From Acrocarpospora corrugata (GTDB lineage Bacteria; Actinomycetota; Actinomycetes; Streptosporangiales; Streptosporangiaceae): a stretch of DNA of 64,000 nucleotides. Positions 13,213-34,296 of the stretch are shown here, in pieces. A program made the position numbers and the translations under genes. Position 1 is the first letter of the stretch; every line of letters starts with the position of its first letter. The notes below the pieces were generated by a model. That model was given only the letters and a program-made list of their open reading frames with translations, did not search any database and was not told the origin of the DNA. The DNA lies in contig NZ_BLAD01000037.1 in NCBI RefSeq assembly GCF_009687845.1, positions 62,001 through 126,000 on the forward strand. The letters are read 5' to 3'.

Positions 13213-13334
13213 GATTCGGACCCTACGGCCGGCACCCCGCCCAGTGCGAACACCCCGAAAGGATGTTCTGGCCTTTCCGAGCGTCCATAGCGGTGCTTGT
13301 GTGGAAAGCACCCTTGATCTCGGAAGGAGGGGCG

Positions 13335-13568: not shown

Positions 13569-15303
13569 GGCGATCGACGTCTTGATCGTGGGTGGCGGCG
13601 CGGCCGGCCTGCGGGCCGCGATCGCGGTCGCCGAGACCTCGCCGGACGCCACCGTGGCCGTGCTGTCCAAGGTCTACCCGATGCGCAGCCACACCGTGAG
13701 CGCAGAAGGCGGCGCCGCCGCCGTGATCGGCCTGGCCGACAGCCCGGACGAGCACGCCTACGACACCGTCTCCGGCGGCGACTGGCTCTGCGACCAGGAC
13801 GCCGTGGAGGCGTTCGTCCGGGAGGCCCCCCGAGAGCTGATCCGGCTCGAACACTGGGGCTGCCCGTGGAGCCGGGAACCCGACGGCCGGGTCGCGGTCC
13901 GGCCGTTCGGCGGGATGAAGCAGCTGCGCACCTGGTACGCGGCCGACAAGACCGGCTTCCACCTGCTGCACACCCTCTTCCAGACCAGCCTCAAACACCC
14001 CGGCATCCGGCGCTTCGACGAGTGGTACGCCACCCGCCTGGTCACCGACGGCGAACGGGTGCACGGCGTCACCGCCATCGACATCAGGACCGGCCGGATC
14101 GACACCATCGCCGCCCGCTCCGTCATCCTGGCCACCGGCGGCTGCGGCCAGGTCTTCCCGTTCACCACCAACGCCGCCATCAAGACCGGCGACGGCATGG
14201 CTCTGGCCTACCGGGCCGGCGCCCCGCTGAAGGACATGGAGTTCGTCCAGTACCACCCGACCGGCCTGCCGTTCACCGGCATCCTCATCACCGAGGCGGC
14301 GCGCGCGGAAGGCGGCTGGCTGATCAACAAGGACGGCTACCGCTACCTGCAGGACTACGACCTCGGCGTGCCCACCGACACGCCCCGGCTGCGCAGCATG
14401 GAACTCGGGCCCCGGGACCGGCTGTCCCAGGCGTTCGTGCACGAGATGCGGCGCGGGCGCACCGCGGAGACCCCGTACGGGCAGGTCACCTACCTGGACC
14501 TGCGCCACCTCGGGGAGGCCAGGATCAACGCGCGGATCCCGTTCGTCCGGGAGCTGTGCCTGAGCTACGAGAAGATCGACCCGGTCACCGACCTGATCCC
14601 GGTCCGCCCGGTGGTCCACTACATGATGGGCGGCGTGCACACCGGCACGGACGGCGCCACCCCCCTGCCCGGTCTGTACGCGGCGGGCGAGACGGCCTGC
14701 GTGAGCATCAACGGCGCCAACCGGCTGGGCTCCAACTCACTGCCCGAGTGCCTGGTGTTCGGGGCGCGGGCGGGGCTGGCGGCGGCGCGGTACGCCGCGA
14801 CGGCCGGGCCGCCGGACGGCGCCGCGGTCCGGGCCCAGGGCGCCGACGAGCGGCGGCGGCTGGAACGGGAGCGGGACGGGCGGGACGGCGGCCGGGAGCG
14901 GGTCTCCGAGGTGCGCGAGCTGATGCGCCGCACCCTGGAGGAGGCGGCCGGCATCTACCGCGACCGCGACTCCCTGGAGAAAGCCGTCGCCACCCTGGCC
15001 GACCTGCGGGAACGCGCCGCCGTCGCGCGGCTGGAGGACCACAGCGCGGCCTTCAACACCGAGCTGCTGGCCGGGCTCGAACTCGGTTCCATGCTGGACG
15101 TGGCCGAGGCGATCGTGGCCTCCGCGCTCAACCGGGAGGAGTCGCGCGGCGCGCATCAGCGCACCGACTTCCCGGATCGCGACGACGCCGGTTTCCTGGC
15201 GCACACCCTGGCCCATCGGGGCCCCGACGGGACGCCTCGGCTCAGCCTGCTGCCCGTCACGATCACACGCTGGCCCCCGGGCGAGAGGGTCTACGGACGA
15301 TGA
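13558..15303 (+). CDS. frdA: Fumarate reductase / succinate dehydrogenase flavoprotein subunit
   Basis: A 581-residue flavoprotein. The N-terminal fold is [15 protein letters not shown], and the covalent FAD histidine is predicted at H45 in [23 protein letters not shown] matches FrdA-like enzymes. The active-site region includes [21 protein letters not shown] and [13 protein letters not shown]. It interconverts succinate and fumarate with electrons passing to the FrdB clusters. Four subunit genes overlap by four bases each, the FrdABCD layout with two separate small membrane anchors. Whether it runs mainly as fumarate reductase or succinate dehydrogenase cannot be read from sequence. Confidence 0.93.
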
Positions 15304-16010
15304 TCCTGCGAGTGAGCCGCTACCGGCCGGGCGTGGACGCCGAGCCGGTCTTCCAGGACTACGAGGTCCCCGACCGGGACGACTGGGCGATCCTGGACGC
15401 ACTCAACCACATCAAGGACACCGTGGACGGCACGCTGTCGTTCCGCTGGTCCTGCCGGATGGGGATCTGCGGATCCTGCGGCATGACCGTGAACGGCGAG
15501 CCCAAGCTGACCTGCGGCACGTTCCTGACCGACTTCACCGGGCCGGTGACGGTCGAGCCGCTGCGCGGGTTCGCGGTGATCAGGGACCTCGTGGTGGACA
15601 TCGATCCGTTCCTGGCGAACCTGTCGAAGGTGACGCCGTGGCTGGTCCGGGAGGGAGAGGAGCCGGCGTCGGAGTTCGCGCAGACGCCGGAGCAGCTGGA
15701 GGCGTACAAGCAGTACTCGATGTGCATCAACTGCATGCTGTGCTACTCGGCCTGCCCGGTGTACGTGCTCAACCCGGACTTCCTCGGGCCGGCCGCGATC
15801 GCGCTGGCGCAGCGCTACAACCTGGACTCGCGGGACATGGGGGACCGGTTCGACGTGCTCTCCAGCGAGGAGGGCGTGTGGGGGTGCACGTTCGTCGGCG
15901 AGTGCACCTCGGCCTGCCCGAAGCACGTGGATCCGGCCGAGGCCATCCAGCGGTACAAGCTGACCGCCGCGCTGCGCAGCGTGCTGCCGTTCTCGCGGAG
16001 GCGGTCGTGA
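15300..16010 (+). CDS. frdB: Fumarate reductase / succinate dehydrogenase iron-sulfur subunit
   Basis: A 236-residue subunit. The N-terminal [2Fe-2S] ligands are C52, C57, C60 and C72 ([12 protein letters not shown] ... LTCG). The C-terminal ferredoxin-like domain carries [14 protein letters not shown] and [17 protein letters not shown] for the [4Fe-4S] and [3Fe-4S] clusters. It transfers electrons between FrdA and the quinone site in FrdCD. The ATG overlaps the frdA stop (ATGA) and its stop overlaps the frdC start (GTGA). Confidence 0.95.
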
Positions 16011-16375
16011 GCTACTCGCCGCCCCGGGACCGGCTCTGGTTCCTGCGCCGCCGCGCCTACCTGGTGTTCGTGCTGCGCGAGCTGACCAGCCTGTTCGTGG
16101 CCTGGTCGGCGGTCTACCTGATCCTGCTGCTTGACGCCTTCGCGGACGGCGCGCTGCCCGCGTTCTGGGACTGGGCGGGCACGCCCTGGGTGCTCGCGCT
16201 GAACGTGGTCGCGCTGGCCGCGGTCACCTTCCACGCGGTCACCTTCCTCAACCTGGCGCCGAAGGCGACCGTGATCAGGCTGGACGGCTGGCGGGTGCCG
16301 GACTTCATGATCGTGGGCGGCAACTTCTCGGCCTGGCTGGCGGTCTCCGCGCTGATCCTTTGGGTGCTCTGGTGA
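16007..16375 (+). CDS. frdC: Fumarate reductase membrane anchor subunit C
   Basis: A 122-residue membrane protein with three hydrophobic helices (about 22-45, 61-85 and 97-121). It contains [18 protein letters not shown], a conserved FrdC-type segment with a histidine near the quinone/haem region. The GTG start overlaps the frdB stop. With FrdD it anchors the complex and provides the quinone site. Length and topology match FrdC. Confidence 0.9.
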
Positions 16376-16713
16376 GCCCGCTGCGGCGCAGGGCCGAGCC
16401 GTACCTGTGGCTGCTGTTCGGGGGCGGCGGCGTGGTGTCCGCGCTGACGCTTCCGGCGCTGGTGCTGATCCTCGGCGTGCTGGTGCCCGCCGGGGTCCTG
16501 TCAAGGCCGGACCTGACTGCGCTGTTGTCAAATGCGGTGGTCCGGCTGGCCCTGGTGGGCCTGGTCATGCTGGCACTTTTCCATGCCGCGCACCGGATCA
16601 GGTTCACCGCCGAGGAGCTGCTCGGGGTGGCCCGCTGGGACCGGTTCATCGCGCTCACCTGCTACGGCCTGGCCCTGACCGGGACCGTCGTCACCGCATC
16701 GATCTTGTTCTGA
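16372..16713 (+). CDS. frdD: Fumarate reductase membrane anchor subunit D
   Basis: A 113-residue membrane protein with three helices. It contains LFHAAHRIRFTAEELLG in the middle, typical of FrdD. The GTG at 16372 overlaps the frdC stop (GTGA), which excludes the longer upstream reading. It is the last gene of the operon. The 200 bases that follow hold an A/T-richer stretch (16710-16800) and a perfect 20-bp palindrome, with no gene seen. Confidence 0.88.
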   Translation: MSPLRRRAEPYLWLLFGGGGVVSALTLPALVLILGVLVPAGVLSRPDLTALLSNAVVRLALVGLVMLALFHAAHRIRFTAEELLGVARWDRFIALTCYGLALTGTVVTASILF

Positions 16714-16814
16714 CACAAAGTGTGACAAAACGGGATCGATTACGGTTTAGCAACATCCATCCCTGACTTTACCTTTCCATTACTGGTTCATCTAACGTCC
16801 GGCTTGCGGCGTGT

Positions 16815-16834
16815 GGGACCGCAATTGCGGTCCC
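16815..16834. promoter_or_regulatory. Perfect 20-bp palindrome GGGACCGCAATTGCGGTCCC
   Basis: The sequence is fully self-complementary with no spacer. It stands about 80 bases before the TTG start of the M6 protease and 100 bases after frdD. A zero-loop palindrome without T-tract suits a dimeric DNA-binding protein better than an intrinsic terminator. Its centre CCGCAATTGCGG is identical to the core of the palindrome at 5933-5944. Confidence 0.5.
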
Positions 16835-16915
16835 GTGTGACAGGCCGTGGCGCGCGACATCCCTAGCGCGCCGTTCGGATGTCGCCCGGTAACCCCGGGC
16901 AGGGAGGGACATACC

Positions 16916-19765
16916 TTGTCAGGCAGAACATCCTCAGGACGGGCCCGGCGTCTGGCCGCCATCGTGCCCGCCCTCGGCCTCGCGGCAGCGGGGCTGACGG
17001 CCATTCCCGGGGCGGCGGTGACCGCGGCCGCGGCCGACACCTCGGTGGCCACCTACATCCCGTCTCCCAGCGACCACTACATCAACTACGCGCCCCCGAT
17101 GGTGCAGGCCGACACCACCGCGGCCGGCGCGGAGCGGTTAACCGCCGGTTCGCAGAGCCGGTCGGGCCGTTCCGGCCAGGACGTCGCGCAGACCACCGCG
17201 CAGACCACCGCGCAGACCATCGACCGCAAGTACGCCGGCGGCAACCCGGTGGCCGCCCGCAGGCTCGCCGACAACGAGCGGCGCGCGGTCAGGACCGGCA
17301 AGAACCCGTTCGAGTTCATCTTCAAGAAGGCCGGCGCCAAGCAGACCGCGAAGCTGCTGACGCTGCTGGTGGAGTTCAACGAGAACGCCAACGACGACTT
17401 CTCCGGCTTCAGCCGGCAGGCGTCCACGGCCGACCCGAACACCTGCGTGGTCGAGTCGGCCGGCACCAAGGTCAACGGCCCGCTGCACAACAAGATCCCG
17501 AACCCGGCGACCCTGCCGGGACCGGGCAAGGACAACAACTCGATGTGGGTGCCGGACTTCAGCGGCGACCACTTCAACAAGATGCTCTACACCGACAAGG
17601 GGATCACCTCGCGGGTCCGTACGGACCTGACCGACCCCCGCGACGGCAAAAAGGGCATCGACATCTCCGGCTTCACCATGAAGAAGATGTACGAGGAGAT
17701 GTCCAAGGGCGCCTACACCGTCACCGGTGCGGCGGTGGGCTGGCTGAAGGTCCCCCACTCCGAGGGCTGGTACGGCGCGGCCGAGTGCAACCCCGCCGGC
17801 GGCAACGCCCCGCAGAACCAGAACGGCCACCCCGACAACCCGGCCGGCCCCGCCCAGCTCGGCGTCGACGCGGTGAACGCGCTCCGCGCCCAGCAGCCGA
17901 ACTTCCCGTGGGCCGACTACGACGTCGAGGACGTCAGCGACGCGGACGGCGACGGCAACCTGCTGGAGCCGGACGGCGTCATCGACCACCTGGTCCTGGT
18001 GCACGCCGGCAAGGACAAGTCCGGCGGCGGCGGCGCCGAGGGCACGTACGCCATCTGGGCGCACTCCGCCACCATCCCGGGCGGCTACACCATCCCGGGC
18101 ACCGGCAAGCGGATCTCCAACTACATCGTGCAGCCCGAGGACTCCGGCGTCGGCGTCTTCGCCCACGAGTACGGCCACGACCTGGGCCTGCCCGACCTGT
18201 ACGACTCCACCGGCGCGGGCGACTCCAGCGTCGAGTTCTGGGACCTGATGTCGACCGGCTCGCACTCCGGGCCGATCTTCCAGTCGATGCCCGCCCACAT
18301 GGGCATCTGGGACAAGTGGGTCCTGGGCTGGGTGAACCCGAAGGCGCTCAACCCGGGTGACGGCACCAAGCTGGTCACCGTCGGCCAGGCGTCCCGTACG
18401 CCGAAGCTGACCGAGGACGGCGTCCGGATCAACCTGCCGGACAAGTCGGTCACCATGACGACGCCGCACAGCGGCGCCAACGCCTGGTGGACCGGCAACG
18501 ACCAGAACTGGGCCGACGTGCGGCTGACCCGCACGGTCCAGGTCCCGGGCGGCTCGGACGTGAAGTTCTGGATGTGGAACGACTACGTCATCGAAGCGGA
18601 CTGGGACTACGGCTTCGTCGAGGTCTCCACCGACGGCGGCGCCACCTGGAACGAGCAGAAGGTCTACACCGAGGGCGGCGCGCTCGTCTCCACCGACGAC
18701 GGCTACGCCGACCCGAACAACCGCATGCAGGACTTCGGCGGCAAGAAGTACGGCCTGACCGACCACACCGACTCCTGGCGGCACGACTACATCGACCTCG
18801 CCCCGTTCGCGGGCCAGACCGTCCAGGTCCGGCTGCGGTACGCGACGGACGAGGCGTTCCTCGAGCGCGGCTGGTTCGCGGACGACTTCTCGGTCACGGC
18901 CGGCGGCGTCACCGTGTGGAGCGACGACGTGGAGGCCGGGGCGAACGGCTGGACCGCCGCCACGGGCACCTTCACCGACACCCGCGGCGCCGGCTGGACG
19001 CGGCACGGCGGCAACATCGTCACCGAGCTGTTCTACCTGGCCGAGTGGCGTAACCTCGACGGCTTCGACCAGGGCCTGGCGTACACCTACGACACCAACT
19101 ACCAGCGCAACGGCGTCTGGAAGGTGGACAAGGTCAAGTACAACGCGCCCGGTCTGCTGGTCTGGCTGCGGGACGGCTCGTTCAGCGGCAACAGCCCGGC
19201 GACGAACGTGCTCTCGCTGCCGTCGCTCGGCTCGAAGGGGCAGCTGCTCCTGGTGGACTCGCACTTCGACCCGCTGCGCAGGACCGGCGTCGCGGCCACG
19301 AAGGACCCGAGCGTGCTGAAGAACATCCCGATGCGCCCGCAGGCCTCCAACGCGGCCTTCGGCTTCGAGAAGACCTACCCGTTCCGGGAGTGCTTCGAGG
19401 CGGCCGGCGAGCCGTTCAGCGAGTACTGCACCTCGTTCCCTGCGCAGAACCCGGTCAAGGCGTTCACCGACGCCAAGACCTGGTACCCGGGCATCGAGGA
19501 CCGCGGCGCCCAAGGGCTCTTCGCCCGTAACCGGGACGCCTCGGCGGTCGTGCCCTCGCGCGACGACCAGCAGTACAGCGTCCGCGTCGTCAACCCGGAC
19601 GGAACCCCCGCCACCGGTCTGTACGGCGAGGACTTCCTCGGCTTCACCCTCGGCTCCGGCAACCCCGGCGATGAGGGCGTGGCCCTGGGCGCGCAGATCA
19701 AGCTGATCACCCCGCTCCCGCTCAACCTCGGAGTCATCCTCCAGGTGACGGCGGCCAAGAAGTAG
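16916..19765 (+). CDS. Secreted immune-inhibitor-A-type metalloprotease (peptidase M6)
   Basis: A protein of about 949 residues. The TTG at 16916 is chosen because AGGGAGGGA sits about 6 bases upstream; it gives an Arg-rich N-terminus, a hydrophobic core (LAAIVPALGLAAAGLTAIPGA) and Ala-rich cleavage region, a clear export signal. A pro-region follows, then the M6 domain with the zinc motif HEYGHDLGLPD at residues 417-427. C-terminal carbohydrate-binding-like beta domains carry two WNEQKVYTEGG / VEVSTDGG-type segments. It should be an extracellular protease. A strong terminator lies at 19779 and a degraded second copy follows directly. Confidence 0.9.
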   Translation: MSGRTSSGRARRLAAIVPALGLAAAGLTAIPGAAVTAAAADTSVATYIPSPSDHYINYAPPMVQADTTAAGAERLTAGSQSRSGRSGQDVAQTTAQTTAQTIDRKYAGGNPVAARRLADNERRAVRTGKNPFEFIFKKAGAKQTAKLLTLLVEFNENANDDFSGFSRQASTADPNTCVVESAGTKVNGPLHNKIPNPATLPGPGKDNNSMWVPDFSGDHFNKMLYTDKGITSRVRTDLTDPRDGKKGIDISGFTMKKMYEEMSKGAYTVTGAAVGWLKVPHSEGWYGAAECNPAGGNAPQNQNGHPDNPAGPAQLGVDAVNALRAQQPNFPWADYDVEDVSDADGDGNLLEPDGVIDHLVLVHAGKDKSGGGGAEGTYAIWAHSATIPGGYTIPGTGKRISNYIVQPEDSGVGVFAHEYGHDLGLPDLYDSTGAGDSSVEFWDLMSTGSHSGPIFQSMPAHMGIWDKWVLGWVNPKALNPGDGTKLVTVGQASRTPKLTEDGVRINLPDKSVTMTTPHSGANAWWTGNDQNWADVRLTRTVQVPGGSDVKFWMWNDYVIEADWDYGFVEVSTDGGATWNEQKVYTEGGALVSTDDGYADPNNRMQDFGGKKYGLTDHTDSWRHDYIDLAPFAGQTVQVRLRYATDEAFLERGWFADDFSVTAGGVTVWSDDVEAGANGWTAATGTFTDTRGAGWTRHGGNIVTELFYLAEWRNLDGFDQGLAYTYDTNYQRNGVWKVDKVKYNAPGLLVWLRDGSFSGNSPATNVLSLPSLGSKGQLLLVDSHFDPLRRTGVAATKDPSVLKNIPMRPQASNAAFGFEKTYPFRECFEAAGEPFSEYCTSFPAQNPVKAFTDAKTWYPGIEDRGAQGLFARNRDASAVVPSRDDQQYSVRVVNPDGTPATGLYGEDFLGFTLGSGNPGDEGVALGAQIKLITPLPLNLGVILQVTAAKK

Positions 19766-19778
19766 CAACGACCGAATC

Positions 19779-19810
19779 GGCGGCCTCCGGGAAACCGGGG
19801 GCCGCCTTTT
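19779..19810 (+). terminator. Intrinsic terminator after the M6 protease
   Basis: A 12-bp GC-rich stem (GGCGGCCTCCGG / CCGGGGGCCGCC, with one T-G pair) closes a GAAA tetraloop and is followed by TTTT. It starts 13 bases after the protease stop codon. Confidence 0.85.
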
Positions 19811-19839
19811 GCCGTCCGCCGTTTGACTTACCGTGTGAC

Positions 19840-21888
19840 AAGTTCATCTACAAGAAGGTCAGGACCAAGCAGACCGCGAAGCTGCTGACCCTGCTGGTGG
19901 AGTTCAACGAGAACGCCAACGACGACTTCTCCGGCTTCAGCCGCCAGTCCTCCACGGCCGACCCGAACACCTGCGTGGTCGAACCGCCCGGCACCAAGAT
20001 CAACGGCCCGCTGCACAACAAGATCCCGAACCCGGCGACCCTGCCGGGACCGGGCAGGGACAACCAGACCCTCTGGGTGCCCGACTTCAGCGCCGCCCAC
20101 TTCAACAAGATGCTCTACACCGACGCCGGCATCACCACCCGCGTCCGCCCCGACCTGACCGACCCCAGGGACGGTAAGAAGGGCATCGACATCTCCGGCT
20201 TCACCATGAAGAAGATGTACGAGGAGATGTCCAAGGGCGCCTACACCGTCGCCGGCGCGGCCATCGGCTGGCTCAAGGTGCCCCACTCGGAAGGCTGGTA
20301 CGGCGCCGCCGCCTGCGACCCCGAGAACGACAACGCCCCGCAGAACACCAACGGCCACCCCGACAACCCGCTCGGCGCGGCCGCGCTCGGCATCGGCGCG
20401 GTCAACGTGCTGGCCGCCCAGCAGCCGAACTTCCCGTGGGCCGACTACGACATCGAGGACACCGCGGACGCCGACAACGACGGCAACCGCCTGGAGCCGG
20501 ACGGCGTGATCGACCACCTCTTCCTGGTGCACGCCGGCGAGGACAAGTCCGGCGGCGGCGGCGCGGAGGGCACGTACGCCATCTGGGCGCACGCCTCCAC
20601 CATCACCGGCGGCTACAGCATCCCCGGCACCACCAAGAAGATCGCCAACTACATCGTCCAGCCGGAGGACTCCGGCGTCGGCGTCTTCGCCCACGAGTAC
20701 GGCCACGACCTCGGCCTGCCCGACCTCTACGACGTCACCGTCGCCGGCGACACCAGCGTCGAGTTCTGGTCGCTGATGTCCACCGGCTCGCACTCCGGGC
20801 CGATCTTCCAGTCGATGCCCGCCCACATGGGCATCTGGGACAAGTGGGTGCTGGGCTGGGCGAACCCGAAGATCGTCGATCCGGGCAGCGGCACCAAGCT
20901 GATCACCGTCGGCCAGTCCTCGAACACCCCCAAGCTGACCGAGGACGGCGTCCGGATCAACCTGCCGGACAAGTCCACCCAGCTGACCGTGCCGCACAGC
21001 GGCGCCAACGCCTGGTGGTCCAGCCCCGACCAGAACTGGGCCGACTCGCGGCTGACCCGCACCATCCAGGTCCCGGCCGGCGCCGACGTCAAGTTCTGGA
21101 TGTGGAACGACTACATCATCGAAGAGGACTGGGACTACGGCTTCGTCGAGGTCTCCACCGGCGGCGGCGCCACCTGGAACGAGCAGAACGTCTACGCCGA
21201 GGGCGGCACGCTCGTCTCCACCGACAACGACCCCAACAAGCGGCTGAAGGACTTCGGGAACAAGAAGCACGGCCTGACCGGCCACACCGACGGCTGGCGG
21301 CACGACTACATCGACCTGACGCCGTTCGCCGGCGCCACCGTCCAGGTCAGGCTCCGCTACGCCACCGACGCCGCCTACATGGAGCGCGGCTGGTTCTCCG
21401 ACGACTTCTCGGTGACCAACGGCGCGGCCACCGTCTTCACCGACGACGTGGAGGGCGGCGCGAACGGCTGGACCGCGACCACCGGCACCTTCACCAACAC
21501 CCGCGGCCAGGGCTGGATCAGGCACAGCGGCACCGAGGTCACCGACCAGTTCTACCTGGCCGAGTGGCGCAACCTGGACGGCTTCGACAAGGGCCTGGCC
21601 TACACCTACGACACCAACTACCAGCGCGACGGCGTCTGGTTCGCCTCCCGGAGCAGGGACGCCTCCGCGGTGGTCCCCTCCAAGGGCAACCAGCTCTACT
21701 CGGTCCGGGTGGTCAACCCCGACGGCACCCCGGCGACCTCGGTCTACGGGCAGCAGTTCAACGGCTTCACCCTGGGCACCGGCAATCCCGGCGACGAGGG
21801 CAAGGCGCTGGGCGCGCAGCTCAAGCTGATCAGCCCCCTTCCCCTTAACCTCGGCGTCATCCTCCAGGTGACGGCAGCGAAGAAGTAA
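19840..21888 (+). pseudogene. Headless, internally deleted second copy of the M6 protease
   Basis: Similarity to the upstream gene begins abruptly at about 19840 (KFIYKKVRTKQTAKLL, matching residues from about 133 of the first copy) and runs to the same C-terminus (VILQVTAAKK). The signal peptide and pro-region are absent. The only usable in-frame start is the internal GTG at 19897, giving 663 residues. HEYGH is kept. Near the end, GVW is joined directly to FASRSRD, removing about 133 residues that the first copy has between GVW (about 19120) and FARNRD (about 19520). The reading frame is otherwise open. Export is impossible as it stands, so it is probably non-functional or a source for recombination. 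Confidence 0.8.
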
Positions 21889-21905
21889 AGCACTAGCATG
21901 TGATC

Positions 21906-22835
21906 ATGCGCAGCAAGGCGGACCACACGGCGGCCGTCCGGGATGACCGGAAGGCCGCCGTTGTGGTGAACACCAAGTCCCGGCGTGGCCGCAGGCACTA
22001 CGCCGAGGTGCTGCGGCTGATCCGGGCCGCCGGCTTCGCGCCGCTCGGGGTGTTCCCGGTGGACGAGCCGAAGCGGCTGCGGGCCACCCTGGACGAGGCG
22101 CTCGGCCTCGAACCCGACCTGCTCATCGTGGGCGGCGGCGACGGCACGCTGAGCGCGGCGGTCAAGCACCTGGTGCACCGGGACGTGGCGCTGGGCGTGC
22201 TCCCGCTGGGCACCACCAACAACTTCGCCCGCAGTCTCGGCCTGCCGCTGACCCGCACCGGCGCGGTCCGGGTCTTCACCGAGGGCAAGGTCGCCGACAT
22301 CGACCTGGGCTTGTGCGGCGACCGCCCGTTCGCCAACCTGGCCAGCTTCGGCGTCTCCGTCGAGGTGGCCGGCACGGTGAAACCGTGGCTGAAGCGGGTG
22401 CTCGGCCGGGCCGCCTACCCGCTCACCGCGCTGACCATCCTGCCGGGCCACCACGCGTTCCGGGCCTACGTCACGGTGGACGGGGTGCGGCACGAGCTGC
22501 TCACCCACCAGCTCAACATCGCCAACGGCCGGTTCCACGGCGGCTGGCAGATCGCCAGGGACATCAGCATCGACAACCGGCGGCTGGTCGCCTACCAGCT
22601 GGGGTCGGGCAAACGGCTGCGGCTGCTGGTGGAGACCATGGGCCGGGCCACCACCGGCAAGTGGCGCAGCCTGGCCGGAGGGCCTTTCGTGATCGGCAGG
22701 GAGATGCTGATCGAGACGGATCCGCCGATGGCGGCCGACATCGACGGCGAGGTGCGGCTGCGCACGCCGCTCACGCTGACCACGATTCCGAACGGCGTGC
22801 GGGTGATGGTCGGGCAGGACTTCGTCGACACCTGA
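21906..22835 (+). CDS. Diacylglycerol kinase family lipid kinase
   Basis: A 309-residue protein with the DagK catalytic domain. VVVNTKSRRGR is near the N-terminus, the nucleotide motif is IVGGGDGTLS (about residues 75-84), and LGVLPLGTTNNFARSLGLPL follows, all typical of YegS/DagK-like kinases. It phosphorylates diacylglycerol, sphingoid or related lipids at the membrane. The ATG at 21906 is used; a GTG two codons earlier is equally possible and no clear ribosome-binding site decides. It follows the protease relic by 17 bases. Confidence 0.88.
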   Translation: MRSKADHTAAVRDDRKAAVVVNTKSRRGRRHYAEVLRLIRAAGFAPLGVFPVDEPKRLRATLDEALGLEPDLLIVGGGDGTLSAAVKHLVHRDVALGVLPLGTTNNFARSLGLPLTRTGAVRVFTEGKVADIDLGLCGDRPFANLASFGVSVEVAGTVKPWLKRVLGRAAYPLTALTILPGHHAFRAYVTVDGVRHELLTHQLNIANGRFHGGWQIARDISIDNRRLVAYQLGSGKRLRLLVETMGRATTGKWRSLAGGPFVIGREMLIETDPPMAADIDGEVRLRTPLTLTTIPNGVRVMVGQDFVDT

Positions 22836-22841
22836 TCGAAC

Positions 22842-22881
22842 CAAGCAAGTGCTTGACCGCCTTTCGGGTGCGGCGTATAAA
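22842..22881 (+). promoter_or_regulatory. Sigma-70-type promoter with overlapping KstR2-like operator
   Basis: TTGACC (22853-22858), a 17-base spacer and TATAAA (22876-22881) make a near-consensus promoter pointing at the cholesterol oxidase. Overlapping its -35 box is CAAGCA-AG-TGCTTG (22842-22855), which contains AGCAAGTGCTTGAC. This fits the published KstR2 motif AnCAAGnnCTTGnT except for the last base. A TetR-type repressor bound here would block RNA polymerase. The mRNA would have a leader of about 90 bases. Confidence 0.75.
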
Positions 22882-22979
22882 GCAGGTGATCCTGCTTCGG
22901 TAGGCGGGGCTAGGCGCGAACCCGTCCCCGCATCCCTCGATGGATGCCTCATTCGTGCCTGCTGCTCCGGAGGTCTCCC

Positions 22980-24668
22980 TTGGACATCCCCCGTACCGGC
23001 CTGTCCCGTCGCGCGCTGCTCGGAGCCCTTTCCTGGACTCCCGTCTTCCATCTGCTGCCCGCCCGCGGCGCCACCCTCGCCGCGCCGCCCGCCTTCCCCG
23101 GCGGCATCTCCATCTATCAGCAGGCGTACGAGAACTGGTCCGGTGAGATCGAGGTCGACGGCGTCTGGACCTGCGCCCCCGCCACCCCCGCCGACGTGGT
23201 CACGCTGGCCAACTGGGCCCGCGCCAACGGCTGGAAGCTGCGCGCCAAGGGCAAGTCGCACAACTGGTCGCCGCTGGTCATCCCGGCCGGCGCGGCCGGA
23301 AACACCGTCCTGGTGGACACCACCCAGCACCTGACCGCCGTCAGCGTCGGCAGCGGCACCGTCACCGCCCAGACCGGCGTCACCATGGAATCCCTGCTCG
23401 GCACCCTGGAAGGCGCCGGCTACGGCCTGACCGCCACCCCCGCCCCCGGCGACCTGACCCTCGGCGGCGTGCTCGCCATCGACGGCCACGGCACCGCCGT
23501 CCCCAAGACCGGCGAGACCCTCACCCCCGGCCACACCTTCGGCTCGGTCAGCAACCTGGTCGTCTCGCTCAAGGCCGTCACCTGGAACGGCTCCGCCTAC
23601 GCGCTGCGCACCTTCCAGCGCGGCGACGCGCAGATCGCCGCCCTGCTGGTCAACCTGGGCCGCTCGTTCATCACCGAGGTGACGTTGCGGGTCGGCGCGA
23701 ACAAGCGGCTTCGCTGCCAGAGCTTCTACCACATCAACGTCAACGACATGTTCGCGCCGCCCGCCAGCGCCGGCTCCAGCTCGTTCGCCGGCTACGTCAA
23801 CTCCACCGGCCGGGTCGAGGCCATCTGGTTCCCGTTCACCACCGTGCCCTGGCTGAAGGTGTGGAGCGTCGCGCCCAGCAAGCCGCTGTTCGCCAAACAG
23901 GTCAACTCCCCCTACAACTACCCGTTCTCCGACTTCCTCTCCGAGGCCGCCTCCGACCTGCTGTCCCAGATCGTGGCGGGCAACGCCGGGCTGACGCCGA
24001 CGTTCGAGAACACCCAGATGGCGGTGGTCGGCTCCGGGCTGATCCTGACCGGGACGTGGGACATCTGGGGCTGGTCCAAGAACACCCTGCTGTACGTGCG
24101 GCCGACCACGCTGCGGGTCACCGCCAACGGGTACGCCATCCTGACCACCCGGGCCAACATCCAGCGGGTGGTGAGCGAGTTCTACACCTACTACAAGAAC
24201 GCGCTCAACGCGTACGCGGCGCTGGGGCGCTATCCGATGAACGGGCCGCTGGAGATCCGGGTGACCGGGCTGGACAACCCCGCCGACGCGCAGGTGGCCG
24301 GGGCGGTGTCGCCGCAGCTGTCGGCGCTGCGGCCGAGGCCGGATCATCCGGACTGGAACGTGGCGGTGTGGCTGGACATCCTCACCGTGCCGGGGACGCC
24401 GTACGCGCAGCAGTTCTACCGGGAGACCGAGCAGTGGATCCTGGCCAACTACACCTACGCGGGGGTGCGCCCCGAGTGGTCGAAGGGGTGGGGGTACTCG
24501 GGCACGGCGACCTGGGCGGACGCGGGGTTCCGGGACACGGTGATCCCCGCGGCGTACCGGGCCGGGCAGCCGGTGGGCGACAACTGGGACACCGCGGTGG
24601 GCACGCTGAACGCGCTGGACCCGCACCGGGTGTTCAGCAACTCATTCCTGGACGCGCTTCTCGATTGA
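22980..24668 (+). CDS. Secreted cholesterol oxidase, type II (FAD-binding, covalent-flavin family)
   Basis: About 562 residues from a TTG start at 22980, chosen because CGGAGG lies 6 bases before it. The N-terminus SRRALLGALSWTPVFHLLPA is a Tat-type signal. An FAD-binding (PCMH) domain follows, with LRAKGKSHNWSPLVI (the His is the likely flavin link) and TLGGVLAIDGHGTAVP. The large C-terminal half matches the cholesterol-oxidase substrate-binding domain (KTLLYVRPTT-like NTLLYVRPTTLR, LEIRVTGLD, NVAVWLDILTVPGTPYAQQFYRETEQWI). It would oxidise sterols with O2 outside the cell, releasing H2O2. It has its own promoter and operator. Confidence 0.85.
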   Translation: MDIPRTGLSRRALLGALSWTPVFHLLPARGATLAAPPAFPGGISIYQQAYENWSGEIEVDGVWTCAPATPADVVTLANWARANGWKLRAKGKSHNWSPLVIPAGAAGNTVLVDTTQHLTAVSVGSGTVTAQTGVTMESLLGTLEGAGYGLTATPAPGDLTLGGVLAIDGHGTAVPKTGETLTPGHTFGSVSNLVVSLKAVTWNGSAYALRTFQRGDAQIAALLVNLGRSFITEVTLRVGANKRLRCQSFYHINVNDMFAPPASAGSSSFAGYVNSTGRVEAIWFPFTTVPWLKVWSVAPSKPLFAKQVNSPYNYPFSDFLSEAASDLLSQIVAGNAGLTPTFENTQMAVVGSGLILTGTWDIWGWSKNTLLYVRPTTLRVTANGYAILTTRANIQRVVSEFYTYYKNALNAYAALGRYPMNGPLEIRVTGLDNPADAQVAGAVSPQLSALRPRPDHPDWNVAVWLDILTVPGTPYAQQFYRETEQWILANYTYAGVRPEWSKGWGYSGTATWADAGFRDTVIPAAYRAGQPVGDNWDTAVGTLNALDPHRVFSNSFLDALLD

Positions 24669-24881
24669 GGCCAGCCGCCGGTAGGCCGGGCGGAGCAGGT
24701 CCAGCAGCGGGATGTGCCTGATCTTGATGGGTGGTGGTTCCAGCGCGCGCAGCAGCAGGTCGGCGGGGGAGCTGACGTCCGGGTGGGCCTTCAGCCGGGC
24801 CAGCGACACCGAGGGCGCGTAGAAGTCGTCGAGCCGGTCGGCGAACGGCACGTCCTCGACGTCGAGCGGATCTCCGGTCAT
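24642..24881 (-). CDS. Small hypothetical protein coupled to the SNF2 helicase
   Basis: A 79-residue protein (MTGDPLDVEDVPFADRLDDFYAPS ... IEKRVQE) without membrane segments. Its ATG at 24881 overlaps the stop of the helicase by one base (TGATG), so the two are translated together. The N-terminal half is acidic and the C-terminal half basic and helical. The last 27 bases overlap the convergent cholesterol oxidase gene. I do not recognise the family; a role as helicase partner is inferred from the coupling only. Confidence 0.65.
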   Translation of the reverse strand: MTGDPLDVEDVPFADRLDDFYAPSVSLARLKAHPDVSSPADLLLRALEPPPIKIRHIPLLDLLRPAYRRLASIEKRVQE

Positions 24882-27760
24882 CAGCGCACCGCCTCTGGGC
24901 TGAGCCGGAACAGGTCGCGCAGCTGGTCGGCGGACAGGTCGGCGAGCCAGTCCTCGCCGCCGCCGACCACGCTCTCGGCCAGCGCCAGCTTGCGTTCGAT
25001 CATCTCGTCCACCCGCTCCTCCAGCGTGCCCACACAGATGAACTTCCTGACCTGCACGTTCCGGGTCTGCCCGATCCGGAACGCGCGGTCGGTGGCCTGG
25101 TTCTCCACCGCCGGGTTCCACCAGCGGTCGATGTGCACGACGTGGTTGGCGGCGGTCAGGTTCAGCCCGACCCCGGCCGCCTTCAACGACAGCAGGAAGA
25201 TCATCGGCTCGTCGTCCCGCTGGAAGCGCTCGACCAGCTCGTCCCGCCGCCGCTTGCTCAGGCCGCCGTGCAGCCAGAGCACCGGCCGGTCCAGCTTGGA
25301 CTCCAGGTACGGCTGGAGCATCGTGCCGAACTCCGCGTACTGCGTGAAGACCAGCGCCTTGTCGCCCTCTTCCAGGATCTCCTCGGCCATCTCCTCCAGC
25401 CGGGCCAGCTTGCCGGAGCGGCCGTCCAGCCGGGAGCCGTCCTTCAGCAGGTGGGCGGGATGGTTGCAGACCTGTTTGAGGCGGGTCATGGTGGCCAGCA
25501 CGTTGCCGCGCCGCTCGATGCCCTCGCTGCTCTCGATCCGGCCCATCATGTCGGCCACCACCGCCTGGTAGAGGCGGGCCTGCTCGGGGGTGAGCGTGCA
25601 CCAGACCTTCATCTCCAGCTTGTCCGGCAGGTCGGAGATGATCGTCTTGTCGGTCTTGAGGCGGCGCAGCACGAACGGCCCGGTGGCCCGGCGCAGCCCC
25701 CGCATCGCGTTGTCGTCCCGGCGGGACTCGATCGGGTCCTGGTAGCGGGTCCGGAACGCCCGCGCCGGGCCGAGCAGCCCCGGATTGCAGAACTCCATGA
25801 TCGACCACAGCTCGGACAGGTGGTTCTCGACCGGGGTGCCGGTCAGCGCCAGTTTGGTCCTGGCCCGGATCTGCCGGACCGCCTGGGCCTGCCTGGTCGC
25901 ACTGTTCTTGATCGCCTGGGCTTCGTCGCAGACGACCCGCTCCCAGCCCTGCCGGGCCAGCGACGGCAGGTCGCGCAGGGCGGTGCCGTAGGTGGTGATC
26001 ACCAGGTCGGCGGCCCGGATCGCGTCTGCCAGCTCGGCGTTTCTGTGGCGGGAACCGCCGTGATGGATGTAGACGCGCAGGCTGGGCGCGAACCTGGCGG
26101 CCTCCTTCTGCCAGTTGTTGATCAGCGACATCGGGCAGACCAGCAGGGTGGCCGGCGGGGTCGCGCCGTCCTCCCGCTCGGCCAGCATCAGCGAGAGCGT
26201 GATGATCGTCTTGCCCAGGCCCATGTCGTCGGCGAGGATCCCGCCGAGGCCGAGCCCCGACAGGAACCCCAGCCAGGCCAGCCCGCGCTCCTGGTAGGGC
26301 CGGAGCACGCCGTTCAGGGTGGCCGGGGTGGGCACGGGGCGCAGCCGGCGTTCGGTCTCGCCGGAGAGCAGGTCGCCGAGCAGGCCGTCGGCGTCCACCT
26401 CGACCAGCGGCAGCTCCTCCGCGCCGCCGAGCACGACCTCGCGGATGACGTCGCCCACGGTCAGCTCGACGACCCGCCGATCCTCGACCGCGCGCAGCGC
26501 GGCCTTCAGCTGGCGGTCGTCCAGCTCCACCCACTCGCCGCGGACCCGGACCAGCGGCACCTTGAGCCGGGCCAGCTCGGCCAGTTCGGCCTCGTCGATG
26601 ACCTGGTCGCCGACGGCCAGGTCCATCCGGAAGTCGACCAGCTCGCGGAGCCCGAGGTTGGGCGGCCCCGGGCGGGATCGGGTGGTCATCTTCAGGCCCA
26701 GCCGGGTCCTGCCCACCCAGGAGGGCAGCACCACGCCGTACCCAGCCGCCTCCAGCAGGGGCGCGGAGTGGCGCAGGAACGCGAACGCGCCCCTGGTGTC
26801 CACGGCCAGCCTGTCCGGGCGTCGCATCCGCAGGGCCCGGTCCAGGTCCGGGTAGAGCCGGACCGCGCGGCGCAGCCCGGCCCGCAGCAGCTCCTGCGGG
26901 TCCGACACGCCGGGGAACTCCGCGCCCGCCCACACTTCCGCCGCCGTGGCCCGCAGATCCGGTTCGTCGGCGGAGCGCAGCCCGAACTCCACCAGCCACT
27001 GGCCGTCCGCCTCCGGCTCAACCAGCCGGAACTCGACCACTACCGGACCGCCGAGCCCTTGCGCCGCCTCAAACCACCCGTTCAGCGCCCGCGACAGGTA
27101 GAAGGCCTCGACCGGCTCCACCTCGTCCAGCCGCGGGTTCGCGTCGGTGAGCGCCAGCAGCCACCGATCCGCCAGCGCGCTCTTCCGCCCCGGCCGGTAC
27201 GCCCCGATCAGCCGCTCAGGAAACGCCTTACGCGCGGTCGAATCCACCAGCTCCGTCAGCGCCCCCAGCAGCACCTCACTGGACCGCCCCTCCTCCTCCA
27301 CGGCCCGGCACACCGGCGGCATCGCCTCCGCCAGCTCCCGGAACCGCGCCGCGTCCGCCCCGGTCAGCACCGGCCGCCAGCGCGCCTCGTCGGTCGCCAG
27401 CCACGGCAGGATGCGCCCCCGCCGGACCAGATCACGCGCGAAATCCCCAACAATCCCGAAATATCGCACCGAAGGCCCAGGAATCGCGTCGATCCCCTCC
27501 GGCGCGTACGGCATGATCGGCACCCGCCACCGCGCCAGCCGCGGATTCCGCACCGTGACATCGGCCCCGAGCTCCGGCGACGGCACCGGCCCCCGCGCCG
27601 AACTGGGCAGCAGCAGCACGACGGATTCGGCCGCCGGCACCGCGAACGGATGGTCCCGGACCTCGGCGCGGGAGTGCGTGATGAACGGGAGCGTCCCGTC
27701 CTCGGCCCACGACGCCAGCCGCCCCCCGGCCCAGATCGCGTGCAGCACCCTCGTCACCAC
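24881..27760 (-). CDS. SNF2-family DNA-dependent ATPase/helicase
   Basis: About 959 residues. The N-terminal half (SNF2 helicase-associated region) is followed by the RecA-like core. Motif I is ADDMGLGKT, motif II is DEAQAIKN, then LTGTPVENHLSELWSI, ALVFTQYAEF and the C-terminal RIGQTRNVQVRKFI (motif VI). It should be a cytosolic ATP-driven DNA translocase. The GTG at 27760 (VVTRVLHAIWAGGRLASW) is the usual N-terminus of actinobacterial members; a GTG at 27850 would add 30 poorly fitting residues. No SWIM zinc-finger gene, often next door in other genomes, is present. Confidence 0.88.
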   Translation of the reverse strand: MVTRVLHAIWAGGRLASWAEDGTLPFITHSRAEVRDHPFAVPAAESVVLLLPSSARGPVPSPELGADVTVRNPRLARWRVPIMPYAPEGIDAIPGPSVRYFGIVGDFARDLVRRGRILPWLATDEARWRPVLTGADAARFRELAEAMPPVCRAVEEEGRSSEVLLGALTELVDSTARKAFPERLIGAYRPGRKSALADRWLLALTDANPRLDEVEPVEAFYLSRALNGWFEAAQGLGGPVVVEFRLVEPEADGQWLVEFGLRSADEPDLRATAAEVWAGAEFPGVSDPQELLRAGLRRAVRLYPDLDRALRMRRPDRLAVDTRGAFAFLRHSAPLLEAAGYGVVLPSWVGRTRLGLKMTTRSRPGPPNLGLRELVDFRMDLAVGDQVIDEAELAELARLKVPLVRVRGEWVELDDRQLKAALRAVEDRRVVELTVGDVIREVVLGGAEELPLVEVDADGLLGDLLSGETERRLRPVPTPATLNGVLRPYQERGLAWLGFLSGLGLGGILADDMGLGKTIITLSLMLAEREDGATPPATLLVCPMSLINNWQKEAARFAPSLRVYIHHGGSRHRNAELADAIRAADLVITTYGTALRDLPSLARQGWERVVCDEAQAIKNSATRQAQAVRQIRARTKLALTGTPVENHLSELWSIMEFCNPGLLGPARAFRTRYQDPIESRRDDNAMRGLRRATGPFVLRRLKTDKTIISDLPDKLEMKVWCTLTPEQARLYQAVVADMMGRIESSEGIERRGNVLATMTRLKQVCNHPAHLLKDGSRLDGRSGKLARLEEMAEEILEEGDKALVFTQYAEFGTMLQPYLESKLDRPVLWLHGGLSKRRRDELVERFQRDDEPMIFLLSLKAAGVGLNLTAANHVVHIDRWWNPAVENQATDRAFRIGQTRNVQVRKFICVGTLEERVDEMIERKLALAESVVGGGEDWLADLSADQLRDLFRLSPEAVR

Positions 27761-27888
27761 AGCGTTCAAGCTAGCAGCGACGGCGGAGTGCCCCGGAACC
27801 TCCCACCCACCCTCGGTCGTTCCCCTGTTGGCAGTTCGTAGCCAGATCACCCTGGCGGGCCATGTCGGCTATTGAAAGGATCCGCCCT

Positions 27889-29673
27889 GTGATCCAGTTC
27901 TCCCTGGTGCCGATGTCGCTGCGCCGGCGGTTCAAGATAGAGGCGCTCCTCGCCCAAGATGAGGAGAGCGACCTCTACCTCGCCCAGCCCAGAAACGGCG
28001 AGCTGCTCGGACCGGTGGCGCTCCGCGTCTACCAGGCGGGCCGCTGGCTCGACGAGGACCTGCTGGCGAAGCTGACCGGGCAGCCGCCGGCCGGTCTGAT
28101 CGCCTACGGGCGGGCGGGTTCCGGCGACGGCGACGTGCCGTGGCTGGTCCAGACGCACCTGCCCGGGGGCTCGCTGCGCTCCCTGATGACCGGCGAGCCG
28201 TGGAACGAGGAACGGACCAGGGAGGTCGTCGCCTCGATCGCCGCGCTGGCCGCCGAATGGCGGGCCGTCACCGGCCAGGAACTCCCCGACGTCCGCCCCG
28301 AGGACCTGCTGGCCGGCGGCTTCGAGCCGCTCACCCTCGTCCTCGGCCTGATCCCGCGCCCCGTCCGGTACGGCTGGTCCCAGCCGCCGCCCCCGGACAG
28401 CGTCGCCGGCGGCCAGGACCTCTGGTGGTCGCTCGGCGTCATCGTGCACGAACTCCTCACCGGGCGGCCGCCCCGGTTCGAGCCGGGCGACCCGGCCGTC
28501 GACCTCGGGGACACCGACCTCGACGCCGGACTCGGGCGCTGGCAGCACCTGCTGGGCGGCCTGCTCACCGTCGACCCGGCCGCCCGCTGGACGGGCCGCG
28601 AAGTCGCCGTCTGGCTGGCCGGCGGCACCCCCGCCGTGACCCCCGACCGGGTGCCGGGCCCGATCACCTTCGAAGGCCGCGAGCACCGCACCCCGGCCGC
28701 CCTGATCACCCACATGACCGCGCACCCCGCCGACACCGAACGCTGGTGGCTGAACGGCGGCGACGTGCTGCTGGTCAACTGGCTCGACCTGGACGTCGCC
28801 GACAGGACCCTGGACCGGTCGCTGCTGGACGCCACGCCCCCGCTCGTCCTGACCGGCCTGGCCGCCACTCACATCCCGGCCAGGCGGCCCAGGTACCGCG
28901 GCTTCGCGGTGGACGCCGACGGGCTGATCGAGCTGGCCGGCGGCGACTCGACCGGGCACCTCGTGCTGGCCGAGGTCGTCTCCACCGGGGCGCTGGCGCA
29001 CGCCGCCCGGCACCGCTGCGAACATCGGGCCTGCCACGCGGGCGGCTTCGACGGGTGCCGGGAACTGACCCGGGTGCTCACCGACCTGCCGATCATCCTG
29101 GCCCAGGCCCGCGACGTGCTCGACCAGATGCGCGAGCGGACCGGCGAGATCGCCGCCAGGGAGTGGAACCGCGGCGTCGCGGTCGCCGTGCAGACCACCC
29201 TCGACCCGGCCAGCGTCCGCGCCCACCGGCGCAGGCTCAGGCTGGCCGGGATCTCCTCGCTGGGCCGGGGCGGGCCCGCCTGGGTCGGCTGGTGGCGGGA
29301 GCAGCGCAGGTACGCCCTGGACGGCCGGGTCGACGAGCTCGCCACCCGGGTCGCGCTGATGATCGTCGTGCTGCTCACGGCCGGAGCCGAGACGCTCGGC
29401 AAGCAGCTGGCCGACGAGAACAAGCAGGAGATGCTCCGCCGCCGTGACCAGGCCACCGACCAGGGCCGCGCGCTGCTGGCCCGGGGGCGGGAAGGCGCGC
29501 TCACCCTGCTCGGCGAGGTGCGGGTGCGGGGGCCGATCCTGTTCCGGCGGCTCATGCTGCTGCTGATGGACGGGGGAGACAAGGCCCGCGCGGGCTCCAA
29601 GGTCCTCAGGTCCCGGCTGCGGAACCGGTACGCGCGCTACCAGCACGACCGCCGTACCAAGATCAGGTCTTGA
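27889..29673 (+). CDS. Membrane pseudokinase-like protein
   Basis: About 594 residues from a GTG with GAAAGGA 8 bases upstream; an ATG at 27862 has no such site. The first 250 residues follow a protein-kinase plan but key residues are changed. There is no glycine loop (LLAQDEESDLYLA), the ATP lysine position reads VALRVY, the catalytic loop reads LPDVRPEDLL and no DFG is seen, while DLWWSLGVIVHELLTGRPP is well kept. A middle region has a CEHRACHAGGFDGC cysteine/histidine cluster. A hydrophobic helix (VALMIVVLLTAG) is followed by a basic tail of about 90 residues. It is divergent from the SNF2 gene. Function is unknown. Confidence 0.7.
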   Translation: MIQFSLVPMSLRRRFKIEALLAQDEESDLYLAQPRNGELLGPVALRVYQAGRWLDEDLLAKLTGQPPAGLIAYGRAGSGDGDVPWLVQTHLPGGSLRSLMTGEPWNEERTREVVASIAALAAEWRAVTGQELPDVRPEDLLAGGFEPLTLVLGLIPRPVRYGWSQPPPPDSVAGGQDLWWSLGVIVHELLTGRPPRFEPGDPAVDLGDTDLDAGLGRWQHLLGGLLTVDPAARWTGREVAVWLAGGTPAVTPDRVPGPITFEGREHRTPAALITHMTAHPADTERWWLNGGDVLLVNWLDLDVADRTLDRSLLDATPPLVLTGLAATHIPARRPRYRGFAVDADGLIELAGGDSTGHLVLAEVVSTGALAHAARHRCEHRACHAGGFDGCRELTRVLTDLPIILAQARDVLDQMRERTGEIAAREWNRGVAVAVQTTLDPASVRAHRRRLRLAGISSLGRGGPAWVGWWREQRRYALDGRVDELATRVALMIVVLLTAGAETLGKQLADENKQEMLRRRDQATDQGRALLARGREGALTLLGEVRVRGPILFRRLMLLLMDGGDKARAGSKVLRSRLRNRYARYQHDRRTKIRS

Positions 29674-30514
29674 CGCCGACGGCGCCCAGCATCGGGACGT
29701 CGGGGTCGCACGGCAGGGTCAGCTCGTCCGGCCGCCACCGGCGGACGCCCACCAGGCCGGGTTCGGCCAGGGTGAGCCCGGCGAAGAACTCCGCGATCGC
29801 GGCGGGGGAGCGGGGCACGGCGGGGGCGCTGGCGCGTTCGTAGATGAACTCCAGCGGCAGCAGCGACGGCTCCCGCCGGGCGTGCGAGATCACCAGGCAG
29901 GAGCCGGGCGGCAGGCCCGCCATCAGGGCGGCCACCGCCTGGTGCGGCTCGGCCGAGTCCGGCAGGTGGTGCAGCAGCGAGGTCAGCAGCACCGCCACCG
30001 GCTGGGACAGGTCGAACAGGTCCCTGACCTGCTCGTCGGCCAGCAGGTCGCCCGGTTTGCGGATGTCCCCGGCGATCGCCCTGGTCCGCGGGTCCCTGGC
30101 CAGCAGGGCGCGGGCGTGCGCCAGCACCACCGGGTCGTTGTCGGCGTAGATCACCCGAGCGTCCGGGCCGGCCCGGCGCGCCATCTCGTGCGTGTTGTCC
30201 CGGGACGGCAGGCCGACGCCGACGTCCAGGAACTGGCGGATGCCGCGCTCCCCGGCCAGGAAGGCGATCGCGCGGGCCGCGAACCGGCGGTTGGCCCAGG
30301 CGGTCTCCCGGGTCAGCGGCACCCGGCGGAGCACCTCGTCGGCGCAGGCCCGGTCGATCAGGGTGTTGTCCTTGCCGCCGAGATAGTAGTCGTGCATCCG
30401 GGCCACGTTCGGCCTTCTGACGTCGATTCCCCCAGGCAGCGGCGGAAGTGGGGGCATCCGGAATTTCACGTCCCTAGAAAAGGGGATTCCCCCTGATTCA
30501 GGGGTAGCCCGCAC
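29663..30514 (-). CDS. SAM-dependent methyltransferase, DUF574 (PF04672) type
   Basis: Up to 283 residues. The start of the conserved domain is IDVRRPNVARMHDYYLGGKDNTLIDRACAD, followed by FLDVGVGLPSRDNTHE (SAM motif I variant), VIYADNDPVVLAHARALL and PVAVLLTSLLHHLPD. This is the common actinomycete S-adenosyl methyltransferase family of unknown substrate. Several starts are possible (GTG 30514, GTG 30469, ATG 30457) and none has a convincing ribosome-binding site, so the N-terminus is uncertain. Its last 11 bases overlap the convergent pseudokinase gene. Confidence 0.82.
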   Translation of the reverse strand: MRATPESGGIPFSRDVKFRMPPLPPLPGGIDVRRPNVARMHDYYLGGKDNTLIDRACADEVLRRVPLTRETAWANRRFAARAIAFLAGERGIRQFLDVGVGLPSRDNTHEMARRAGPDARVIYADNDPVVLAHARALLARDPRTRAIAGDIRKPGDLLADEQVRDLFDLSQPVAVLLTSLLHHLPDSAEPHQAVAALMAGLPPGSCLVISHARREPSLLPLEFIYERASAPAVPRSPAAIAEFFAGLTLAEPGLVGVRRWRPDELTLPCDPDVPMLGAVGVKT

Positions 30515-30534
30515 GGGTGGCCACTCAGGGACGT

Positions 30535-30870
30535 TCAGGTATCAAGCGGAACCACATAGACATTCGCGAACCAGGTCCGTACCGACGCGGCGTGCAGATG
30601 CCCGGAAATGCCGCGATCGCCTTCCACGGCCATCACCGCGTGAATATGCGGATCGCCGCCGACGATCTCCCCGGTGCCGGTCATCTCCGCCGGAAAGTCA
30701 TAGTCGGTAACGATGTCCTTGGTCGCGTCGTGCGCCGGCATGGTGGAGATGCGGAACGAATCCACGCCGCCGATCAGGGAGACGATCGCGCCGCGGGTGA
30801 CGCCCAGTTCGGCCAGCCTGGCGCGCAGGGTCGCCACCAGTTCGCCGTTCTTGATTTCGATCAGATGCAA
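30535..30870 (-). CDS. PPC/DUF296 domain protein
   Basis: A 111-residue single-domain protein. ELVATLRARLAELGVTRGAIVSLIGGVDSFRIS opens it, and EIVGGDPHIHAVMAVEGDRGISGHLHAASVRTWFANVYVV contains the GxPHxHA ... GHL histidine set of PPC (plant and prokaryote conserved, DUF296) proteins. These form trimers and in bacteria are of unclear function. The TTG at 30870 has GGAG about 7 bases upstream and lies inside the end of the XRE gene (10-base overlap), so the pair is translationally coupled. Confidence 0.78.
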   Translation of the reverse strand: MHLIEIKNGELVATLRARLAELGVTRGAIVSLIGGVDSFRISTMPAHDATKDIVTDYDFPAEMTGTGEIVGGDPHIHAVMAVEGDRGISGHLHAASVRTWFANVYVVPLDT

Positions 30871-31640: not shown

Positions 31641-31762
31641 AAATCAGATCGTACGCCGCAAGGGCTGCCGGTGGCTTTGGAAAAAGAAAGGGTCCGGGGA
31701 GGACATGGGTCAGGCATGCCCGCCCCGGACCGGGAGGGTCGGGCCCGGAGGGACCCAGGGGG

Positions 31763-31801
31763 CCCGCCTCCCCCAGAGGGGTCCTTCTGGGGGAAGGCGG
31801 G
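31763..31801 (-). terminator. Strong hairpin downstream of the GH9 gene
   Basis: CCCGCCTCCCCCAGA (31763-31777) pairs with TCTGGGGG-A-AGGCGGG (31786-31801), a 15-bp stem with one bulged A. It lies 12 bases beyond the GH9 stop. There is no T-tract on either strand, so termination may be inefficient or it may mainly protect the 3' end. Confidence 0.6.
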
Positions 31802-31812
31802 CGGCTCGGAGG

Positions 31813-34296
<2,484 letters not shown>

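Follow-up and report, generated by a model that had tools for sequence, protein, structure and literature searches.

The window analysed here, a 64-kb stretch from the genome of a high-GC actinomycete (G000; 9.27 Mb in 170 contigs), carries on its forward strand a gene (positions 22980–24668, with TTG at 22980 as start codon) for a type II (VAO/BCO2-like) cholesterol oxidase, CHOX, of 562 aa, behind GGAGG at 22969–22973, its likely ribosome-binding site. A domain scan, run from an upstream ATG in the same frame (22944), found PF09129 (Chol_subst-bind) at 482.4 bits and PF01565 (FAD_binding_4) at 48.7 bits, the domain pair of the type II/VAO class; the best PDB match is 3js8 (chain A, E 3e-214, residues 34–560 of 562 aligned), and 1i19 also matched. 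These two structures are type II cholesterol oxidases of the same enzyme family, and hold no information on regulation. The N-terminus, MDIPRTGLSRRALLG, includes SRRALLG and resembles a Tat signal. The domain score, the 3js8 match and this N-terminus bear out the first-pass annotation in calling the product a secreted-type type II cholesterol oxidase. Its closest named relatives come from Sphaerisporangium, Thermocatellispora, and Streptosporangium, which makes Streptosporangiaceae, as delimited in GTDB, the probable family of the host. The CHOX family acts on intact sterols, and the gene does not belong to late ring (HIP) catabolism; the neighbours that were scanned encode a lipid kinase, a peptidase of family M6, and an SNF2 helicase. 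The lipid kinase, of YegS/DAGK type, lies directly upstream on the same strand (21900–22835; PF00781 above cut-off, NCBIfam matches below cut-off). Further upstream, the adjacent genes at 16847–19765 and 19897–21888 encode proteins of one similarity cluster, possibly a tandem duplication; the product of the former is an M6 immune-inhibitor-A-type peptidase.

Only 5 bp separate the lipid-kinase stop codon from an 18-bp block, CCAAGCAARTGCTTGACC (22841–22858, forward strand), which reads CCAAGCAAGTGCTTGACC here and is followed by 17 nt and TATAAA. The block ends in the −35 hexamer TTGACC (22853–22858), which with the −10 hexamer TATAAA (22876–22881, 17-nt spacer) forms the near-consensus promoter upstream of CHOX that the first-pass annotation had pointed out. 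Matches of at least 10 of 12 promoter bases number two in the 64-kb window and zero in 10 first-order Markov simulations; the second one is TTGACA-16-GACAAT at 35299 on the reverse strand. A promoter scan that demanded T at the last −10 position listed none in 13000–32900. Within the block lies a 14-bp palindrome, CAAGCA-NN-TGCTTG (22842–22855, forward strand, reading CAAGCAAGTGCTTG here), whose right arm runs into the −35 hexamer; this is the arrangement of a TetR-type operator, a palindrome of ∼14–20 bp on promoter elements, and it is kept across orthologues (13/13 places, see below). The site had been described as covering the −35 box: the overlap is real, and, since the 14-mer shares three bases with the hexamer, the cover is partial. 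The exact sequence CAAGCANNTGCTTG has a single copy, at 22842–22855, in the window and in the whole genome; with up to three mismatches it matches 32 times in the window against 14.9 expected, and with up to one mismatch it has 30 matches in the whole genome where the reversed control has 51, which speaks against any genome-wide enrichment of the loose motif. Directly where the −10 box ends there is a perfect inverted repeat, AAGCAGG-TGAT-CCTGCTT (22880–22897), which is absent there in the relatives inspected.

CCAAGCAARTGCTTGACC, followed by 17–18 nt and TATAA, recurs at 13 places in 12 genomes of the family, representing nine genera, and each time it stands upstream of CHOX (11 whole genes, one cut by a contig end in G091, and one remnant in G051). 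Seventeen of the 18 operator columns are invariant, the sole exception being position 7 (G in 10 places, A in three). The hexamer TTGACC is unchanged and TATA is kept at all 13 places, at a spacing of 17 nt in nine and 18 nt in four, whereas little more than background similarity remains in the left flank and over most of the spacer. A looser form, CCAAGCANNTGCTTGAC, matched 18 places in 17 of 295 family genomes and gave 21 matches with its reversed control, so the total count alone proves nothing. The centre of the motif separates these places: 13 of the 18, in 12 genomes, have the centre AR, and all 12 genomes carry a CHOX match, while the other five places have other centres and lie in genomes lacking a CHOX match. 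With a CHOX match defined by E at most 1e-50, such matches occur in 16 of 297 genomes, one of which (G208) has only a 39% partial match. The strict form CCAAGCAARTGCTTGAC is found in 12 of the 16 CHOX genomes and in 0 of 279 others (Fisher p 2.5e-18, not corrected for kinship). Chance is excluded chiefly by this conservation in 12 genomes; the 18 bp and the TATAA downstream of them are a selected operator–promoter block, and we regard the role of the 18 bp as an operator as very likely.

The block is patchily distributed among CHOX genes. It lies within 500 bp of CHOX in five of 27 loci from named genomes (L054, L055, L056, L067, and L069, which appear identical to genomes G202, G031, G067, G116, and G055) and is absent from the 500 bp upstream in 22 of the 27 (L079 has no upstream sequence); CHOX loci of Yinghuangia, Streptacidiphilus, Frankia, Pseudofrankia, Crossiella, Embleya, and Mycetohabitans all lack it. 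One CHOX genome without the strict block, G017, has ACCAAGC-N4-GCTTG upstream of the gene on the other strand. In G051, the operator and TATAA are intact on one contig (C310, L119:9870–10403) with a CHOX remnant (residues 489–561) directly downstream, and a second CHOX elsewhere in the genome stands without the strict operator. Among 394 genomes of the class, CCAAGCAARTGCTTGAC occurs only in G000 and in G426, a member of another family, where this 17-mer has a TetR gene on one side and on the other an mce-type (YrbE/Mce) operon, named from sequence rather than by family scan (L162:7930–7946, contig C39 of G426).

Two bases downstream of the palindromic register, the block can also be read against the published KstR2 motif AnCAAGnnCTTGnT (PMC3068626). 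At 22844–22857 on the forward strand it departs from that motif by a single mismatch, as the first-pass annotation had stated; the final base is C where the motif has T. The last T is C in all 13 operator places, and three sites (in G116, G179, and G234) read CAAGCAAATGCTTG, in which the CAAG of the published motif is broken and the mismatches number two. One single-mismatch match is no evidence by itself, because AnCAAGnnCTTGnT with up to one mismatch is about as frequent genome-wide as its reversed control (240 and 230 places). Exact copies of AnCAAGnnCTTGnT elsewhere in the genome number 11, of which nine are CAAGCGCTTG. Similarity to sites shown to bind KstR2 comes instead from ACCAAGCAAGTGCTTG, 16 nt of the CHOX site that are identical to a stretch of the EMSA-positive Mycobacterium tuberculosis Rv3549c/Rv3550 KstR2 probe (PMC3068626, Tables 2 and 3).

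The genome's own KstR2 orthologue (C43:20628–21320) matches the PDB entries 4w97 (KstR2; E 3e-50) and 2ibd (2e-52), and shares the stretch ILSGSLYHHF with the latter, which is labelled only ‘possible transcriptional regulator’. It is the single strong match of the KstR2 search, the next having 28% identity and E 1.4e-14, and an absence of KstR2 that would have spoken against the earlier proposal thus did not materialize. The gene is divergent from one for a FadA6-type thiolase (PRK07801, 683 bits, cut-off 591), the only gene near kstR2 that looks pathway-related, with an exact KstR2-motif site between the two. At a threshold of E at most 1e-70, KstR2 orthologues are present in 12/12 operator genomes (63–100% identity) as compared to 189 of 295 family genomes (p 0.004), whereas of the four CHOX genomes that lack the strict operator one has KstR2 (p 0.007 versus 12/12); four relatives from the genus have KstR2 and no CHOX match. 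This co-occurrence, which is confounded by kinship and by sterol catabolism in general, fits KstR2 but also any regulator linked to sterol catabolism. Nine of 17 kstR2 upstream regions contain the exact CG-centred CAAGCGCTTG, a form other than that at CHOX, which counts against KstR2 there; the other eight, six of them from operator genomes, have no exact CG-centred site within 300 bp. A second element, GAnCAAGCnRTTG, lies near the gene in 14 of the 17 regions (L081, L132–L147), followed by CATAAT in several that were inspected.

On the contig of the KstR2 orthologue there is also a gene cluster that we call HIP-like, and a putative HIP regulon, from its content of two CoA-transferase-type genes, an enoyl-CoA hydratase, SDRs, an acyl-CoA dehydrogenase, a flavin reductase, and a lipid-transfer gene (three of its proteins, scanned against NCBIfam, scored below cut-off). 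The cluster carries CCAAGCAAGCGCTTG, in the same register as the CHOX site and one base different; at a clearly intergenic promoter (L012:8030–8047) the other strand reads CCAAGCAAGCGCTTGG, in which 15 nt differ from the CHOX block by one base. The exact KstR2-motif sites of the cluster are two, this intergenic one and a second (C43:61121) that overlaps the GTG called as the start of the lipid-transfer gene and may be a coding coincidence. The pattern ACCAAGC-N4-GCTTG, with varied N4, is common to the intergenic sites at CHOX, C43:61033, C57:72710, C70:79927, and C73:2321, against about 0.9 expected in this genome from base composition; the excess is not a clean test, because the sites surfaced through searches for related patterns. 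The same pattern fits a KstR2 site predicted for Rhodococcus jostii ro04652/04653, a sequence that deviates from the published consensus as well and has no EMSA in that report (PMC3068626).

Weight matrices, whose training and comparison sets are small and partly circular, give mixed evidence. In an 18-column matrix of nine kstR2-promoter sites of the family, the CHOX site scores 6.5 bits (A variant 1.8) as compared to 11.4–29.3 for nine KstR2-like sites of the same genome; in an 18-column matrix of seven distinct published sites it scores 17.0 (A variant 12.8) versus 17.4–27.0. Although both scores are low, the 22-column matrix of published sites puts CHOX (15.6) within the range of the nine family kstR2-promoter sites (7.5–17.9), the genome's own kstR2 site scoring 11.7. 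The description of the site as a KstR2-like operator stands in so far as an orthologue is present and 16 nt equal an EMSA-positive site; what weakens it is the symmetry in another register, the consensus broken at three of 13 sites, and, over 18 columns, the matrix scores.

The genome-wide list of KstR2-like sites is impure, because it includes chance-like matches, start-codon overlaps, and sites whose downstream genes show no clear link to sterols. C61:15777 and two exact consensus sites with non-CG centres (on C41 and at C43:202951) look like chance matches, and C70:82246, on the called start of an F420-type gene, may be another coding coincidence. Sites at C70, C42, C81, C57, and C73 precede genes without a clear sterol role; the C62 site adjoins EchA19-type, FadD-type, and ChsH2-domain genes. 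On C70 there is also a palindrome with perfect 9-bp arms, CAACCAAGC-ACTC-GCTTGGTTG (L014:7924–7945), before a gene for a 253-aa protein without Pfam or NCBIfam match, in a neighbourhood of F420 oxidoreductase, dioxygenase-like, and P450 genes.

We propose that the 18 bp serve as a repressor operator superimposed on the −35 box of a strong promoter of housekeeping type. Its occupant would be a sterol repressor of the TetR family, most likely the organism's own KstR2, which as a bound dimer would block RNA polymerase; sterol breakdown would then yield a ligand, the repressor would leave, and the secreted CHOX would be made. The site is best read as one of steric repression that a sterol metabolite relieves, because the palindrome overlaps the −35 box of a near-consensus promoter and KstR2 represses as a homodimer (PMC3068626; PMC11667970). 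HIP-CoA, the reported KstR2 effector (PMC7807495), would be the signal at the CHOX promoter. That the promoter is repressed rather than activated seems highly likely, and the protein on the operator is probably, though not certainly, KstR2.

A challenge to KstR2 comes from the two symmetries of the block. Position 7, the variable one, is central in the CAAGCA-NN-TGCTTG register, whereas in the KstR2 register, two bases further downstream, it coincides with a base that the motif requires; conservation therefore favours the former. Another dimeric repressor, of TetR or a similar type and with its gene at some other locus, that reads this 6-2-6 palindrome and controls CHOX almost alone would explain why all 12 arm positions are invariant with the variable base central, which the published KstR2 register does not; it would also agree with the uniqueness of the exact site in the genome, with the low 18-column KstR2 scores, and with the position of the G426 block beside another TetR gene. 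We hold such a repressor to be a serious but less probable possibility. A site nearly identical to that of CHOX occurs at the genome's own HIP-like promoter, and it would be unusual for a trans regulator to have one target and no autoregulatory copy of its site. CHOX also lacks a conserved TetR neighbour: apart from lineage-specific genes, nothing recurs next to it in most of the 13 regions. A home-made TetR profile found TetR genes in these regions ∼3.5 kb from CHOX in the three genomes of genus g52 (Actinoallomurus type), and one each in L121 and L128 at ∼7.5–8 kb. The TetR protein of G426 has no orthologue in this genome (best match E 1e-6 over 55 residues). A KstR2 paralogue (42–44% identity), found in seven of 12 operator genomes, cannot be the general regulator, because it is absent from the other five (G000, G005, G051, G091, and G202) at E 1e-20. 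Tentatively, the operator that travels with the patchily distributed CHOX might define a second binding mode, CCAAGC-N4-GCTTG, read either by KstR2 with half-sites four base pairs further apart than published (perhaps as overlapping dimers) or by a new sterol repressor through which extracellular sterol attack would be coupled to ring catabolism. The register question also bears on how strictly KstR2 reads half-site spacing.

An activator site is an improbable alternative to the repressor operator. With transcription inferred to start near 22888, the palindrome would be centred near −40, a class II position; yet the −35 and −10 hexamers, near consensus and at ideal spacing, need no activator, and the −10 box lies 17 nt from the operator in some of the 13 places and 18 nt in the others. 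The notion that the promoter alone is conserved and the palindrome incidental is scarcely credible, since promoter constraint accounts for part of the conservation, through the right arm that overlaps the −35 box, but not for the left arm CCAAGCAA, which lies outside the hexamer and is invariant at 13/13 places, whereas conservation drops almost to background in the flanks and over most of the spacer.

Among known systems, the CHOX operator is close to the KstR2 regulon described for Mycobacterium smegmatis, M. tuberculosis, and R. jostii (Kendall 2010, PMC3068626), with which it shares the 16 nt of the EMSA-positive operator, a TetR-type palindrome on the promoter of a sterol gene, and a KstR2 orthologue. 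It differs from the sites published there in being fused to the −35 box, in a right arm that ends CTTGACC rather than CTTGCTT, and in its symmetry in another register; moreover, the 15-gene regulon of Table 4 in that paper lists no cholesterol oxidase. A cholesterol oxidase of Nocardioides simplex, KR76_09550, is predicted to be under a TetR-type sterol repressor and marked as induced by phytosterol, which likens it to CHOX, but the repressor predicted is KstR rather than KstR2 (PMC7807495). Our literature search, covering titles and the beginnings of abstracts, found no cholesterol oxidase under KstR2, and nothing on sterol regulation in Streptosporangiaceae and their kin. KstR also has a different motif. 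If KstR2 does control CHOX, the first, extracellular step of sterol attack would be switched on by a late product of ring breakdown, a feed-forward link that is not described in the passages on KstR2 of PMC3068626, PMC7807495, PMC7593942, and PMC11667970. As a candidate sterol-responsive promoter of Streptosporangiaceae and kin, the block is compact and testable. The CHOX genes of Yinghuangia (L057, L058, and L059) have a different upstream block in common, roughly CGGAAC-GATC-TTCCG as judged by eye, which suggests another regulator there.
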